A stretch of DNA of 64,000 nt. It comes from Mesorhizobium sp. LSJC280B00. GTDB lineage: Bacteria > Pseudomonadota > Alphaproteobacteria > Rhizobiales > Rhizobiaceae. Within the stretch, counting starts at the first letter, position 1. Each line of letters starts with the position of its first letter. This document shows positions 19,472 through 45,962 of the stretch, piece after piece. Under the pieces are notes generated by a model. The model made no database searches. It had not been told where the DNA came from and worked only from the letters and a program-made list of their open reading frames with translations. Position numbers and translations under genes: made by a program. The stretch lies in NCBI RefSeq assembly GCF_000502835.1, contig NZ_AYVL01000005.1:235955-299954 (forward strand), written 5' to 3'.

Positions 19472-19627
19472 CCCCCCTCTGGCCTGCCGGCCATCTCCCC
19501 CTCAAGTGGGGAGATCGGACTTCACGTCAGCCTTCGCCAATCCTTCATCGCCGCAGGAATGAGCGAGGCGCTGGGTCTGCCAATCTCCCCCCTTGAGGGG
19601 GAGATGTCCGGCAGGACAGAGGGGGGC
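19472..19627. repeat. Palindromic mosaic repeat, family A, copy 2
   Basis: Left arm CCCCCCTCTGGCCTGCCGGCC then ATCTCCCCCTCAAGTGGGGAGAT; right arm AATCTCCCCCCTTGAGGGGG then GTCCGGCAGGAC and AGAGGGGGG. The arms are inverted copies, each with its own internal hairpin. It sits between the convergent secB and dnaQ genes. Confidence 0.9.
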
Positions 19628-35064: not shown

Positions 35065-35223
35065 TAATCTCCCCCCTTGAGGGGGAGATGGCCGGCAGGC
35101 CAGAAGGGGTCGTCAAATTTCAAGCGCCCACGTCCTCTGTCTTCGCGGAAGGGGCTGGTGTTCTACGCGCTGTGACCCCCTCTGTCGCCTTTGGCGACAT
35201 CTCCCCCTCAAGGGGGGAGATTA
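35065..35223. repeat. Palindromic mosaic repeat, family A, copy 3
   Basis: One arm carries the hairpin GGCCGGCAGGCC next to AATCTCCCCCCTTGAGGGGG; the other carries GTCGCCTTTGGCGAC with CTCCCCCTCAAGGGGGGAGA. It fills the convergent parB-holA gap, and its last bases form the holA stop codon. Confidence 0.9.
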
Positions 35224-36267: not shown

Positions 36268-37930
<1,663 letters not shown>

Positions 37931-37932
37931 CC

Positions 37933-38946
37933 ATGCCGCGGCGGACCATGATCGAGGCGATCCGCGACGCCATGGACGTGTCGATGGCGCGCGACGAGCG
38001 CGTCATCGTGTTCGGCGAGGATGTCGGCTTCTTCGGCGGCGTCTTCCGCTGCACCCAGGGCCTGCAGGCGAAATACGGCAAGAGCCGCTGCTTCGATGCG
38101 CCGATCAGCGAATCCGGCATTGTCGGCGCGGCTATCGGCATGGCCGCCTACGGGCTGAAGCCTTGCGTCGAGGTGCAGTTTGCCGACTATGTTTATCCGG
38201 CCTACGATCAGATCGTCTCGGAAGCGGCGCGGCTGCGCTACCGGTCGAACGGTGATTTCACCTGCCCGATCGTGGTCAGGATGCCGACCGGCGGCGGCAT
38301 TTTTGGTGGCCAGACCCACAGCCAGAGCCCGGAGGCGCTGTTCACCCACGTCTCCGGCCTGAAAGTCGTGGTGCCCTCGAACCCGCATGACGCCAAGGGC
38401 CTTTTGATCGCGTCGATAGAGGATCCGGACCCGGTGATCTTCCTGGAACCGAAGCGGCTTTATAATGGCCCTTTCGACGGTCATCACGAGCGGCCGGTAA
38501 CGCCATGGTCGAAACATGAGCTCGGCGAAGTCGCCGACGGCCATTACACGGTGCCGCTCGGCAAGGCGGTGATCCGACGGCCGGGTGCGGCAGTCACCGT
38601 GCTTGCCTATGGCACGATGGTCTATGTCGCCCAGGCGGCAGCCGAGGAGACCGGCATCGATGCCGAGATCATAGATCTGAGGACACTGCTGCCGCTCGAT
38701 CTCGAGACGATCGTCGCCTCGGTCAACAAGACGGGGCGCTGCGTCATCGTGCACGAGGCGACGCTGACATCGGGGTTCGGCGCCGAACTTTCGGCGCTGG
38801 TTCAGGAGAGCTGCTTCTACCATCTGGAAGCGCCGGTGGCGCGGGTCACCGGCTGGGACACGCCCTATCCGCATGCGCAGGAGTGGGACTATTTTCCTGG
38901 TCCTGCCCGGCTAGGCCGCGCGCTCGTCGAAACGGTGGAAGCCTGA
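37933..38946 (+). CDS. bkdA2: Branched-chain 2-oxoacid dehydrogenase E1 beta subunit
   Basis: A 337-residue transketolase-like beta chain: ERVIVFGEDVGFFGGVFRCT, PISESGIVGAAIGMAAYGLK, GGIFGGQTHSQSPEALFTHV and the C-terminal IDLRTLLPLDLETIVASVNK with VTGWDTPYPHAQEWDYFP. It pairs with E1 alpha and carries much of the ThDP site. It is packed tightly between bkdA1 and bkdB. Confidence 0.95.
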   Translation: MPRRTMIEAIRDAMDVSMARDERVIVFGEDVGFFGGVFRCTQGLQAKYGKSRCFDAPISESGIVGAAIGMAAYGLKPCVEVQFADYVYPAYDQIVSEAARLRYRSNGDFTCPIVVRMPTGGGIFGGQTHSQSPEALFTHVSGLKVVVPSNPHDAKGLLIASIEDPDPVIFLEPKRLYNGPFDGHHERPVTPWSKHELGEVADGHYTVPLGKAVIRRPGAAVTVLAYGTMVYVAQAAAEETGIDAEIIDLRTLLPLDLETIVASVNKTGRCVIVHEATLTSGFGAELSALVQESCFYHLEAPVARVTGWDTPYPHAQEWDYFPGPARLGRALVETVEA

Positions 38947-38956
38947 AGGGGGAACG

Positions 38957-40369
38957 ATGGGCGAATATGTCATCAAGCTGCCCGATGTCGGCGAAGGCGT
39001 AGCCGAGGCCGAGCTCGTCGAATGGCAGGTCAAGGTCGGCGATCTCGTGCGCGAGGATGCCGTGCTGGCCGCTGTCATGACCGACAAGGCGACGGTCGAA
39101 ATTCCTTCGCCCGTCGATGGCGAAATCGTCTGGTTGGGCGCCGAGATCGGCGACACGGTGGCGATCGGCTCGCCGATTGTCAGGTTGAAGGTGGCGGGCG
39201 AGGGCAATGTCAGGGATGCTGCGTCGCAGGCCACTGAGGCGGGCGCCAAGAATACCCCCACCGAGCGCAGTACCCCCACCCCTAACCCCTCCCCACAAGG
39301 GGGAGGGGGACGTGCCGCAACCTCCAAGGCCGAACCCGAGACCGCTCCACGATCATCTGAAAAAACACCAACGCATAAGGGACTAAGTGCGGCGGGTGGC
39401 GAATCCCCCTCTCCCTTGTGGGGAGGGGTTAGGGGTGGGGGTACTGCCGCCGGTGGGGGTACTGCGCGGACCTCCGGCGCGCCGCGTCCGGAGGGCGAAA
39501 AGCCACTGGCCTCACCGGCCGTCCGCTTGAGGGCGAAAGAGGCCGGCATCGACCTTCGGCAGGTCCCGGGAACCGGCCCGGCCGGCCGCATCCAGCATGA
39601 GGACATCGAGGCTTTCCTGGCGCGCGGACCTCTGCTCGCCAAGGTTTCCGGCCTTGCCCGCAACGAGGCGGTCGAGGACATCAAGATAGTCGGGCTCAGG
39701 CGAAAGATCGCCGAGAAGATGACGCTGGCCAAGTCGCGCATCCCGCATATCACCTATGTCGAGGAGATCGACGTCACCGCGCTCGAGGATTTGCGCGCCG
39801 CGCTCAACAAGGAGAAGCGGCCGGGCGGGAACAGGCCGAAGCTGACGCTGCTGCCGTTCTTGATGCGGGCGATGGTCAAGGCAATCGCCGACCAGCCCAA
39901 TGTCAACGCACTGTTCGACGACGAAGCCGGCATCGTCCACCAGCATGGCGGCGTCCATATCGGCATCGCCGCGCAGACGGCTTCCGGGCTGATGGTGCCC
40001 GTGGTCAAGCACGCCGAGGCGCGCGACATCTGGGACTGTGCAGCCGAGGTTGTCAGGCTGGCCGAGGCAGCAAAATCCGGCACGGCGACGCGCGACGAAC
40101 TCTCGGGATCGACCATCACCATCACTTCGCTGGGCGCCATGGGCGGCGTGGCGACGACGCCGGTGATCAATCATCCGGAAGTGGCGATCGTCGGCGTCAA
40201 CAAGATGATGGTGCGGCCGGTATGGGACGGTACCCAGTTCATCCCGCGCAAGATGATGAACCTGTCCTCCAGCTTCGACCACCGCGTCATCGACGGCTGG
40301 GACGCGGCGGTGTTCATCCAGCGGATAAAGACGCTGCTGGAAACGCCGGCGCTGATTTTTGTGGATTGA
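38957..40369 (+). CDS. bkdB: Branched-chain 2-oxoacid dehydrogenase E2 (dihydrolipoyl acyltransferase)
   Basis: A 470-residue E2. Lipoyl domain at residues 1-80 with lipoyl-lysine K44 in AVMTDKATVEIPSPVDG; peripheral subunit-binding domain at about 185-220 (SPAVRLRAKEAGIDL ... GPAGRIQHEDIEAFL); catalytic acyltransferase domain from about 240 with the active-site SSFDHRVIDGWDAAVF. The linker between the lipoyl and binding domains (about 81-184) is unusually long and Gly/Pro-rich because residues about 105-163 are encoded by a palindromic repeat. It starts 10 bases after bkdA2. Confidence 0.95.
   Translation: MGEYVIKLPDVGEGVAEAELVEWQVKVGDLVREDAVLAAVMTDKATVEIPSPVDGEIVWLGAEIGDTVAIGSPIVRLKVAGEGNVRDAASQATEAGAKNTPTERSTPTPNPSPQGGGGRAATSKAEPETAPRSSEKTPTHKGLSAAGGESPSPLWGGVRGGGTAAGGGTARTSGAPRPEGEKPLASPAVRLRAKEAGIDLRQVPGTGPAGRIQHEDIEAFLARGPLLAKVSGLARNEAVEDIKIVGLRRKIAEKMTLAKSRIPHITYVEEIDVTALEDLRAALNKEKRPGGNRPKLTLLPFLMRAMVKAIADQPNVNALFDDEAGIVHQHGGVHIGIAAQTASGLMVPVVKHAEARDIWDCAAEVVRLAEAAKSGTATRDELSGSTITITSLGAMGGVATTPVINHPEVAIVGVNKMMVRPVWDGTQFIPRKMMNLSSSFDHRVIDGWDAAVFIQRIKTLLETPALIFVD
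39270..39444. repeat. Family C palindromic repeat inside bkdB
   Basis: A 41-base arm (39270-39310, GTACCCCCACCCCTAACCCC ...) is repeated inverted at 39404-39444 with one mismatch, around a 93-base spacer. Each arm contains its own CCCCTTGTGGGG-like hairpin. The whole element is read in frame, giving TPTPNPSPQGGGG at one end and PSPLWGGVRGGG at the other. Extra TACCCCCA/TGGGGGTA words flank both sides (39253 and about 39452). Confidence 0.95.
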
Positions 40370-40424
40370 TGAGATGAACAGAGGATCGCAGGGGCGCGAG
40401 ATGAGAGCAGTAGCGATCCTTCGC

Positions 40425-40580
40425 GCCCCCCTCTGCCCTACCGGGCATCTCCCCCTCAAGGGGGGAGATCGGCCGTCATCCCGCCTTTCGCCAATCTCCA
40501 GCTTTGCAGGACTAAGCCGAACGCGAAAGCTGCCAATCTCCCCCCTTGAGGGGGAGATGTCCGGCAGGACAGAGGGGGGT
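40425..40580. repeat. Palindromic mosaic repeat, family A, copy 4 (inside the bkd operon)
   Basis: Left arm CCCCCCTCTGCCCTACCGGGC then ATCTCCCCCTCAAGGGGGGA; right arm AATCTCCCCCCTTGAGGGGG then GTCCGGCAGGAC. It lies in the 243-base gap between bkdB and the lipoamide dehydrogenase gene, co-directional genes of one pathway. Confidence 0.9.
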
Positions 40581-40612
40581 GCTGCCCCGCCGGCTCGTCG
40601 AACTAAGGTGCA

Positions 40613-42020: not shown

Positions 42021-42172
42021 TCTCCCCCCTTGAGGGGGAGATGGCCGGCAGGCCAGAGGGGGTCGGTTCGACTGGATGCGACCTCCCTTGCGACAGATGG
42101 AGGTTGGCGCTCTACGCGAGGCGACCCCCTCTGTCGCCTTCGGCGACATCTCCCCCTCGAGGGGGGAGATTA
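42021..42172. repeat. Palindromic mosaic repeat, family A, copy 5
   Basis: CTCCCCCCTTGAGGGGGAGA followed by GGCCGGCAGGCC on the left; GTCGCCTTCGGCGAC and CTCCCCCTCGAGGGGGGAGA on the right. It fills the gap between two convergent stop codons (10 and 6 bases away). Confidence 0.9.
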
Positions 42173-43834: not shown

Positions 43835-44192
43835 GCCGGCTGGTGTCGCGGGTCCAGACGCTGTCGGGACAGCGCCCCCCTCTCTGCCCTGCCGGGCATC
43901 TCCCCCTCCAGGGGGAGATTGGATGTCACCGCGGCTTTCGCCAATCTCCAAGGTGGCTGAATGGATGCTATCGGCGAAGCTGCCGATCTCCCCACTAGAG
44001 GGGGAGATGCCAAGTGATCGCAAAGAGGGCAGGACAGAGGGGGTCGCGAAGGATCACCAAGGGCGGTGATCGTTGTGGCGTTACCGCAGCAAAGCGATAT
44101 AGGCTTTCAAAATGTGGATCGATGGCGTGCAGCCGCCCCCTATCTCTCGCAGCACCGCGCGTTCACCCAAAGAACCTAGACAGGAGGCCTCC
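43835..44192. repeat. Gap with palindromic mosaic repeat, family A, copy 6
   Basis: The 358-base gap between the Lrp gene and RidA. The repeat occupies 43874-44046: left arm GCCCTGCCGGGC with ATCTCCCCCTCCAGGGGGAGA, right arm ATCTCCCCACTAGAGGGGGA. The right arm is interrupted by about 19 extra bases (near 44012-44030) before GGGCAGGACAGAGGGGG. The rest shows no gene; the RidA promoter probably lies there. Confidence 0.85.
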
Positions 44193-44580: not shown

Positions 44581-45810
44581 ATGCAATTCGATCTCCTGAT
44601 AAAAGGCGGCCGCCTCATCGATCCGGCGTCCGGCCTCGACGCGCAGAGCGATCTGGCGATTGCCGACGGCCGTATCGCCGCGATCGACACCGAAATCCCC
44701 TTCGAACGTGCCGCCCGCGTCATCGATGCCACGGGCTCCATCGTCGCGCCGGGCCTGATCGACCTGCACAGCCATGTCTATTGGGGCGGCACGTCGCTCG
44801 GCGTCGATGCCGACCGGCTCGCCGCAAAGAGCGGCACCACCACCTTCATCGATGCCGGAAGTGCCGGCGCCGGCAATTTCCTCGGCTTTCGCCGCCACGT
44901 CATCGAGCGCTCGAAAGTCCGCATCCTGGCCTATGTCAACATTTCCTTTGCCGGCATATTCGGCTTCTCGCAGACCGTGGCGGTCGGCGAGTGTAGCGAT
45001 CTCCGGCTCTGCGAACCGCGCGAGACGGTAGCGGCGGCTCGCGAGCACGCGGACGTGGTTGTCGGCGTCAAGGTCCGCTCGGGTCGCCATGCCGGCGGCA
45101 CCAGCGGCATCGCGCCGGTCGATCTCGCGCTCGAAGCCGCCGACAAAGCCGGCCTGCCGCTGATGGCGCACATAGACGAGCCGCCGCCGGGCCGCTCGGA
45201 AGTGCTGCCGCGGCTGCGCAAGGGCGACATCCTCACCCACTGCTTCCGGCCGTTTCCCAACGCGCCGGTCTTCGCCTCGGGGGCGGTGCGGCCAGATATG
45301 CGGCTGGCGCGCGAGCGCGGCGTCATCTTCGACATCGGCCACGGCATGGGCTCGTTCGATTTCGAAGTGGCGAAAGCGATGCTCAGCGAGGGGCTGGCGC
45401 CGGACGTGATCAGCAGCGACGTGCATCTCTACTGCGTCGACGGGCCGGCCTTCGACATCCTGGTCTGCATGTCGAAGCTGCTGGCGCTCGGCATGCCGCT
45501 GGTCGAGGTGCTGCGCGCCGCCACGCAGCGCCCTGCCGAAGCGATCGCCAGGCCCGATCTCGGCAGGCTTGCGGTGGGTGCGGTCGGCGACATCGCGGTG
45601 TTGCGGCTGCGTCCGGGCCGCTTCACCTTTGTCGATTCGGTCGGCGCCTCGCTGGTCGCCGAGCAAAGGCTGGTCTCGGACGGAATCGTGGTCGGCGGCA
45701 GCTGGTGGCCGAACGAGGCGGTGGACGATCTCGGCGAGACCGAACGCTTCGAAGCGCATGCGCACGACACTCATGTCGATGTGGCGAGCCGGCATTTCGG
45801 GCGTGGGTGA
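44581..45810 (+). CDS. Metal-dependent amidohydrolase/deacetylase (COG3964-like)
   Basis: A 409-residue amidohydrolase-superfamily enzyme. N-terminal beta-sandwich FDLLIKGGRLIDPASGLDAQ; the first metal site is IVAPGLIDLHSHVYWGG; KVRSGRHAGGTSG probably holds the bridging Lys; later metal ligands are in PLMAHIDEPPPG, ILTHCFRPFPN and DVISSDVHLYCVDGP. Relatives include dihydroorotase-like and N-acetyl-amino-acid deacetylase enzymes; the substrate here is unknown. Pairing with RidA suggests product imine removal. Its stop codon forms the first bases of a family A repeat. Confidence 0.87.
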   Translation: MQFDLLIKGGRLIDPASGLDAQSDLAIADGRIAAIDTEIPFERAARVIDATGSIVAPGLIDLHSHVYWGGTSLGVDADRLAAKSGTTTFIDAGSAGAGNFLGFRRHVIERSKVRILAYVNISFAGIFGFSQTVAVGECSDLRLCEPRETVAAAREHADVVVGVKVRSGRHAGGTSGIAPVDLALEAADKAGLPLMAHIDEPPPGRSEVLPRLRKGDILTHCFRPFPNAPVFASGAVRPDMRLARERGVIFDIGHGMGSFDFEVAKAMLSEGLAPDVISSDVHLYCVDGPAFDILVCMSKLLALGMPLVEVLRAATQRPAEAIARPDLGRLAVGAVGDIAVLRLRPGRFTFVDSVGASLVAEQRLVSDGIVVGGSWWPNEAVDDLGETERFEAHAHDTHVDVASRHFGRG

Positions 45811-45962
45811 TCTCCCCCCTTGAGGGGGAGATGTCGCCGAAGGCGACAGAGGGGGTCGGTTCGACCGGGCTCGTCTTCCTGCAACGGATGGAGGTTGGCG
45901 CTCGACGCGCGGCGCCCCCCTCTGGCCTGCCGGCCATCTCCCCCTCAAGGGGGGAGATCGGC
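45808..45962. repeat. Palindromic mosaic repeat, family A, copy 7
   Basis: ATCTCCCCCCTTGAGGGGGA with GTCGCCGAAGGCGAC on the left; GGCCTGCCGGCC and CTCCCCCTCAAGGGGGGAGA on the right. It spans the whole convergent gap, from one stop codon to within three bases of the next. Confidence 0.92.

Follow-up and report, generated by a model that had tools for sequence, protein, structure and literature searches.

Short palindromic repeats in frame within E2 linkers and other genes of Mesorhizobium-type genomes

The E2 gene of the window and its palindrome

The window (the whole 64,000-nt stretch of Mesorhizobium sp. LSJC280B00 DNA that was analysed) contains a gene for a dihydrolipoyl acyltransferase (E2), the catalytic domain of which covers residues 238-468 according to Pfam. 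Neighbouring ORFs read as E1alpha, E1beta and E3, and from the order E1alpha-E1beta-E2-E3 we infer the name bkdB; the E2 itself passed none of the NCBIfam cut-offs. Between the first two domains of the protein lies a dimer of a palindromic repeat that we call R1 (the names R1, R2 and R3 were coined in this analysis). The features of the locus are as follows.

38957..40369, + strand: E2 gene, bkdB-like, 470 aa (ORF; Pfam Biotin_lipoyl, E3_binding and 2-oxoacid_dh)
38972..39187, + strand: stretch coding for the lipoyl domain, residues 6-77 (Pfam)
39253..39310, + strand: left arm of the R1 dimer, 58 nt, with a 41-nt core at 39270-39310 (inverted-repeat search; mismatch count)
39265..39280, + strand: left copy of a 16-nt perfect inverted repeat, partner 39452-39467 (inverted-repeat search)
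39286..39308, + strand: left hairpin core, a palindrome of the CCCCTCCCC-ACAAG type (core common to intergenic copies)
39311..39403, + strand: inter-arm spacer, coding, divergent between species (comparison of R1 genes)
39404..39461, + strand: right arm of the R1 dimer, with a 41-nt core at 39404-39444 (inverted-repeat search)
39406..39428, + strand: right hairpin core (inverted-repeat search)
39452..39467, + strand: right copy of the 16-nt perfect inverted repeat, partner 39265-39280 (inverted-repeat search)
39503..39610, + strand: stretch coding for the E3-binding (subunit-binding) domain, residues 183-218 (Pfam)
40447..40558, no strand assigned: R3 palindromes in the intergenic gap from E2 to lpd (motif positions)
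1309-1330, 19493-19605, 35067-35221, 40447-40558, 42035-42170, 43898-44008 and 45810-45958: seven clusters of intergenic-looking R3 (ATCTCCCC...GGGGAGAT)

As the preliminary description had claimed, the 41-nt cores of the two arms are inverted copies with one mismatch, stand 93 nt apart and lie in frame within bkdB, where they span codons 105-163, and Pfam places them between the lipoyl and E3-binding domains. Taken with 58-nt arms, which match at 93% as an inverted pair, the element measures 209 bp and has terminal inverted repeats; its end reads GTACCCCC. The window holds 102 exact inverted pairs of 14 nt within 200 nt, compared with 1 to 9 in five first-order Markov simulations, indicating that the palindromy is not due to chance. 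For the RNA of 39240-39475 the folding energy is -164.5 kcal/mol, whereas shuffled sequences give -100.7 ± 4.8 (z = -13.3); none of 200 shuffles folded as well. An Rfam search of 38900-40600 with E values up to 1 returned no intron or bypass family; its five matches, four microRNA families on the palindromes and RT-15 on the lipoyl-domain stretch, all fell below the gathering score and were taken as chance. An AlphaFold prediction from a 20-row alignment had a mean pLDDT of 35 and was set aside. Another repeat-like stretch, with the translation LLPLVGEGEL...PSPTRGEGG, occupies 36282-36500, just 5' of the E1alpha gene.

Repeats in E2 linkers and in other genes

The strain's own genome (a 7.03-Mb draft in 120 contigs) holds the intergenic copies that the preliminary description had proposed to look for: a near-identical R1 dimer lies between genes at G000:C14:64391-64534, with GTACCCCC on one side, and the R1 hairpin core recurs elsewhere. 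Four intergenic R1 dimers measured 92-174 bp with hand-cut ends. The named public relatives of this genome belong for the most part to Mesorhizobium, and Pseudaminobacter and Aliihoeflea are more distant. R3 was found at 141 places in this genome at up to 2 mismatches, and it is also present in the gap after the window's lpd gene.

Of the 146 genomes of the genus, 141 yielded an E2 match, and each of these loci was read. R1 linkers are present in 39 of these genes and R2, a palindrome distinct from R1 with CGTC at its start, in 8; the linkers of most species are of an ordinary Ala/Pro/Lys type. Uninterrupted ORFs number 135 (33 with R1, 8 with R2 and 94 with neither), the 33 R1 calls being made by pattern in 31 cases and by eye in L065 and L081, as were the class calls outside pattern matches. 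The other six R1 genes are interrupted: two are frameshifted inside an arm (G029 and G047), one contains Ns (G143) and three end at a contig edge in the repeat (G079, G097 and G040), which shows that assemblies can break at such palindromes. The two frameshifts (L084 in G029, with a ten-G run, and L103 in G047) represent sequencing error, slippage or real loss.

R1 linkers were also found outside the genus set, in Pseudaminobacter arsenicus (L237), Aliihoeflea (L256), M. ephedrae (L258) and two MAGs (L262 and L269), the last in decayed form. Of the palindromic insertion put forward in the preliminary description, the in-frame element thus stands, whereas the one-off event does not: with R1 in 39 of 141 genes and spread across the genus and beyond, a single recent insertion is ruled out. 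The comparison of relatives otherwise left the description intact, since not all of them carry an R1 linker and intergenic homologues exist. Two further linkers are recorded here as separate observations. In Aliihoeflea, R1-like peptides occur both within the linker and immediately upstream of the E2 start, and the E2 linker of Rhizobiales bacterium 65-79 (L264) looks derived from yet another palindrome (SPPSPRRGEEEP...RRPLSPGGE).

With flanking bases trimmed, the R2 dimer measures 102 nt from end to end in both intergenic copies measured and in seven of the eight E2 genes; it is 96 nt in L076. Three of seven E2 R2 spacers tested resemble intergenic ones in reverse orientation, while those of L067, L077, L078 and L079 had no match to the three intergenic copies compared (L076 was left out).

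The linker as landing site, proposed for R1, holds and extends further: R2 and R3 are also found in such linkers, and several E2 paralogues are involved. For the pyruvate-type E2, the own copy was matched in 58 of 61 sampled genomes, and the 46 full-length genes, all of which were read, comprise 41 with ordinary linkers, 4 with R3 (G054, G086, G040 and G038) and 1 of R1 type (G109). A second paralogue (66-71% identical; loci L331-L340 and L342-L359) has, by eye, an R3-type peptide in 26 of 28 full-length genes, the exceptions being L351 and L357. Some of these 26 linkers have an R1-type right half, and an exact inverted repeat of at least 10 nt is present in 18 of them and in none of the other 8. 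The more distant L360 and L361 (52-54%) lack the R3-type peptide.

E2 genes are not the only hosts. In a hand-picked sample of the own genome (30 R3 loci and some R1 loci, bkdB included), 32 distinct palindromes were recognized by pattern, of which 17 fall within an ORF that continues for 50 codons or more to either side. Seven of the 32 are in frame and flanked by matches to a single family, or to the two domains of a single protein; this fraction gives no genome-wide rate because the sample is not random. They belong to six genes: glyS (first and third element), a molybdopterin reductase, a hydantoinase (hydantoinase B), uvrD/pcrA, an XdhC-like gene and bkdB. Three R3 elements are present in glyS (glycyl-tRNA synthetase beta; L377, G000:C1 at ~109.6 kb), the second beside an assembly N that breaks the frame. 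The glyS insert falls between residues 289 and 297 of GlyS (7eiv). In uvrD/pcrA (L019:392-3019; G000:C8 at ~343 kb), the in-frame element adds ~64 residues (query 320-383), which fall between chain residues 237 and 241 of Escherichia coli UvrD (3lfu). The molybdopterin reductase, hydantoinase and XdhC-like elements are at L013, L018 and L020. For the remaining nine of the 17 in-ORF palindromes, Pfam scans of same-strand ORFs gave no family match spanning the palindrome: the spanning ORFs of L030, L403, L380, L382, L383, L391 (one of two ORFs) and L017 had no Pfam match, and L032 had a PhnJ match only ahead of the palindrome. We consider that such repeats within genes are most likely translated as protein. 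In such genomes, repeats called extragenic can be coding.

Linker turnover and upkeep of the arms

The history of the linkers was followed on a tree of E2 domains made by a quick method, our main tree result. By parsimony, linker class requires 26 changes on this tree, compared with a mean of 37.3 after shuffling; changes forced by well-supported branches number 10 for R1, 9 for other linkers and 4 for R2. Secondary trees of E1beta (77 rows) and lpd (71 rows) require 24 and 22 changes, with 7 of 200 shuffles as low in each, so that linker class is only weakly clustered; the labels used there miscalled L220 as R1 and left L256, L263 and L266 uncounted. None of the aligned pairs showed a sister's ordinary linker cleanly interrupted by the element; sister linkers differ throughout their length, and as a result neither an empty site nor a target-site duplication can be read.

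Some spacers match across clades. Against a background identity of 61% for shuffled spacers (95th percentile, 69%), the spacer of L042 is 87% identical to that of L050, from another clade, and 70% identical to that of its sister L038, and the spacer of L043 is 86% identical to that of L060 and 67% to that of L044. For 25 of the 31 R1 genes, the most similar spacer belongs to a gene other than the closest R1 relative on the tree, while over all 465 pairs spacer identity falls with tree distance (rho = -0.28). The cross-clade matches, together with best matches that are often not the nearest relative, suggest that linkers have been exchanged between species on top of descent.

The arms behave differently from the spacer between them. 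Pairwise difference at four-fold sites is 0.116 and 0.135 in the two arms, against 0.53 in the spacer, 0.44 in the E3-binding domain, 0.24 in the catalytic domain and 0.26 in the lipoyl domain; this comparison covers 29 of 33 rows and favours conservation, because L060, L065, L070 and L081, with decayed or lost arms, were excluded. Arm integrity tends to follow the number of R1 copies in the genome. Mismatches in the right arm decrease with genomic copy number (Spearman -0.56, p = 0.0007, n = 33), as do those in both arms (rho = -0.38, p = 0.027) and those in both arms without six head variants (rho = -0.55, p = 0.003). Under independent contrasts the link remains, at modest strength, for the right arm (r = -0.46, permutation p = 0.004, rank p = 0.04) and for both arms without head variants (r = -0.52, permutation p = 0.004, rank p = 0.09). 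With bkdB's own copies subtracted, R1 genomes have a median of 15 copies, compared with 7 in 35 genomes without R1 in bkdB (33 other and 2 R2; p = 0.004).

These data bear on the possibility that selection at the nucleic acid level keeps the palindromes, an mRNA hairpin usefully slowing ribosomes or setting mRNA stability. The arms are frozen at synonymous sites and fold strongly as RNA, and the median minimum free energy of the 250 nt ahead of the E3-binding domain is -148.5 in 33 R1 genes and -146.4 in 8 R2 genes, compared with -120.6 in 94 others. Arms with none or one mismatch also persist in genomes with few other copies (3 for L062, 4 for L040 and 7 for L042), from which it follows that conversion is not the sole route. 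If the protein or the mRNA needed the arms, however, copy number would be irrelevant, and arms decay where genomic copies are few. Moreover, 94 of the 135 uninterrupted E2 genes of the genus do without R1 or R2, linker class turns over on the tree as often as described above, the left head is longer in six genes, and the right arm of L060 is gone. We therefore regard this explanation as unlikely.

Less likely still is selection for the repeat-derived peptide, as a Pro/Gly-rich spacer of useful length or stiffness, with nucleotide conservation as a by-product of recent spread. R1, R2 and R3 do all encode Pro/Ser/Gly-rich peptides at the same kind of site, but the peptides of the three families are unlike one another, ordinary Ala/Pro/Lys linkers suffice in most species, and the spacer has diverged while the arms have not. 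That the segment is absent from the protein, being bypassed, spliced out or an assembly fault, is very improbable: the repeat coincides with a break in three assemblies and with Ns in another, and an arm is frameshifted in two genomes, but 33 of 35 gap-free R1 linkers are open in frame, spacer length (as cut) is a multiple of 3 in 31 of 31 R1 genes measured, and the Rfam search described above offers no intron or bypass family.

Evidence for exchange with genomic copies from loop bases and head variants is mixed. The near relatives G011 and G120 differ from each other in the loop base of both arms, and each has the base that is in the majority in its respective genome (G in 41 of 69 and T in 56 of 84; hand counts, bkdB copies included), whereas in G000 and G032 the genomic majority is T (6 of 9 and 10 of 16; hand counts) and bkdB has A. 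The loop bases of the two arms are alike in L068, L069 and L070 and unlike in L042 and L047. The longer left head is illustrated by L053 and L058, the linkers of which are nearly identical apart from a 36-nt head difference. Copies of this head elsewhere than in bkdB were found in 14 of 22 genomes searched, but in only 4 of the 6 whose bkdB has it; the bkdB genes of G032 and G054 have the head in genomes without another copy.

The explanation that we consider probable is that selfish palindromes are tolerated as coding sequence, in the manner of Rickettsia palindromic elements (RPEs), with E2 linkers as a recurrent harbour and arms that are probably renewed from genomic copies. The bkdB segment would be a dimer of R1, a multi-copy short palindromic repeat of Mesorhizobium-type genomes, translated as the interdomain linker. 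Repeats would land in genes as well as between them, and frame-keeping insertions at flexible or surface positions would survive. Because E2 linkers tolerate very different sequences, at least three repeat families would have settled in them time and again, and linker cassettes may then pass between species, most likely via recombination in the conserved flanking domains. Sequence exchange with other copies, by gene conversion or re-seeding, and not protein need, would keep the arms near the genomic family; where the family is rare in the genome, the arms would decay. A bolder version, which we put forward only tentatively, has the interdomain linkers of 2-oxoacid dehydrogenase E2 proteins of the genus as a standing harbour in which selfish palindromes turn into protein and the in-gene copies evolve in concert with the intergenic family, so that gene conversion from non-coding DNA rewrites part of a central enzyme, which is then swapped as a cassette from species to species.

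Rickettsia is obligately intracellular and difficult to manipulate. Rhizobia of the Mesorhizobium type live freely and are amenable to genetics; they offer coding palindromes in several genes and, for one and the same enzyme, sister species that have the element and others that lack it. How far the repeats are tolerated and expressed, what they cost and whether gene conversion acts on them can thus be tested directly in these hosts.

Comparison with known repeat families

Intragenic GTAG and CGTC repeats and RPEs are in the literature, so coding palindromes are already a known kind. The titles and abstract starts of the open-access literature searched contained nothing on palindromes in E2 linkers or on coding palindromes in Mesorhizobium, and the repeated use of E2 linkers, in three paralogues and by three families, was not found in the open-access literature searched. 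The excerpted text on RepRanger (PMC12306157) gives an extragenic location as usual.

Like MITEs, for which in-frame fusion with host ORFs is described as possible in excerpts of a review (PMC10969869), the repeats are short, geneless and have inverted ends, and the bkdB R1 element carries terminal inverted repeats. Neither a transposase nor a target duplication was identified, however; sister linkers differ throughout, and the empty site is unreadable. The likeness to GTAG REPs lies in short hairpin repeats, single or in inverted pairs and in many copies, and according to excerpts of Di Nocera 2013 (PMC3733652) UvrD/REP helicase genes are struck by GTAG REPs in other species. By reading, R1 differs in lacking a GTAG end, GTACCCCC standing in its place. 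Mobilisation of R1 by a RAYT was rejected, since no match to the Y1 transposase family PF01797 was found in the 120 contigs of the own draft genome (5 of 14 controls were positive).

According to the excerpts of PMC3733652, GTAG and CGTC repeats also occur inside genes of many species, repair genes being frequent hosts, and two of the RPE families are assigned to the CGTC class; Mesorhizobium does not occur in the main text of that paper. As in the CGTC REPs described there, CGTC stands at the start of R2, the stem begins with AT and the dimers are inverted; one of eight E2 copies (L079) has CGCC at one end. As for the short CCA-like tail of CGTC REPs, the halves of the R2 dimer run on into the variable spacer. 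R1 and R3 differ from CGTC REPs in lacking the CGTC tag, by reading.

The closest counterparts are the RPEs, the in-frame insertions of which are summarised in the excerpted MITE review (PMC10969869), where Ogata 2000 is cited as first arguing from Rickettsia that selfish palindromes create protein sequence. The resemblance proposed in the preliminary description is borne out, in that the palindromes have both intergenic and intragenic copies and keep the frame in unrelated hosts (bkdB, uvrD/pcrA, glyS, hydantoinase, XdhC and molybdopterin reductase). As in the excerpted accounts of RPEs (PMC10969869 and PMC3733652), tens of residues are added and repair genes are among the hosts. In size, too, the bkdB element (209 bp), the intergenic R1 dimers (92-174 bp) and R2 (102 bp) are comparable to RPEs, which measure roughly 100-150 bp. 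The likeness rests on these features, the common point at the sequence level being the CGTC tag of R2, by reading. What sets the present case apart from RPEs is its setting in free-living rhizobia with large genomes, the repeated striking of E2 linkers by three families and the signs of exchange with genomic copies.
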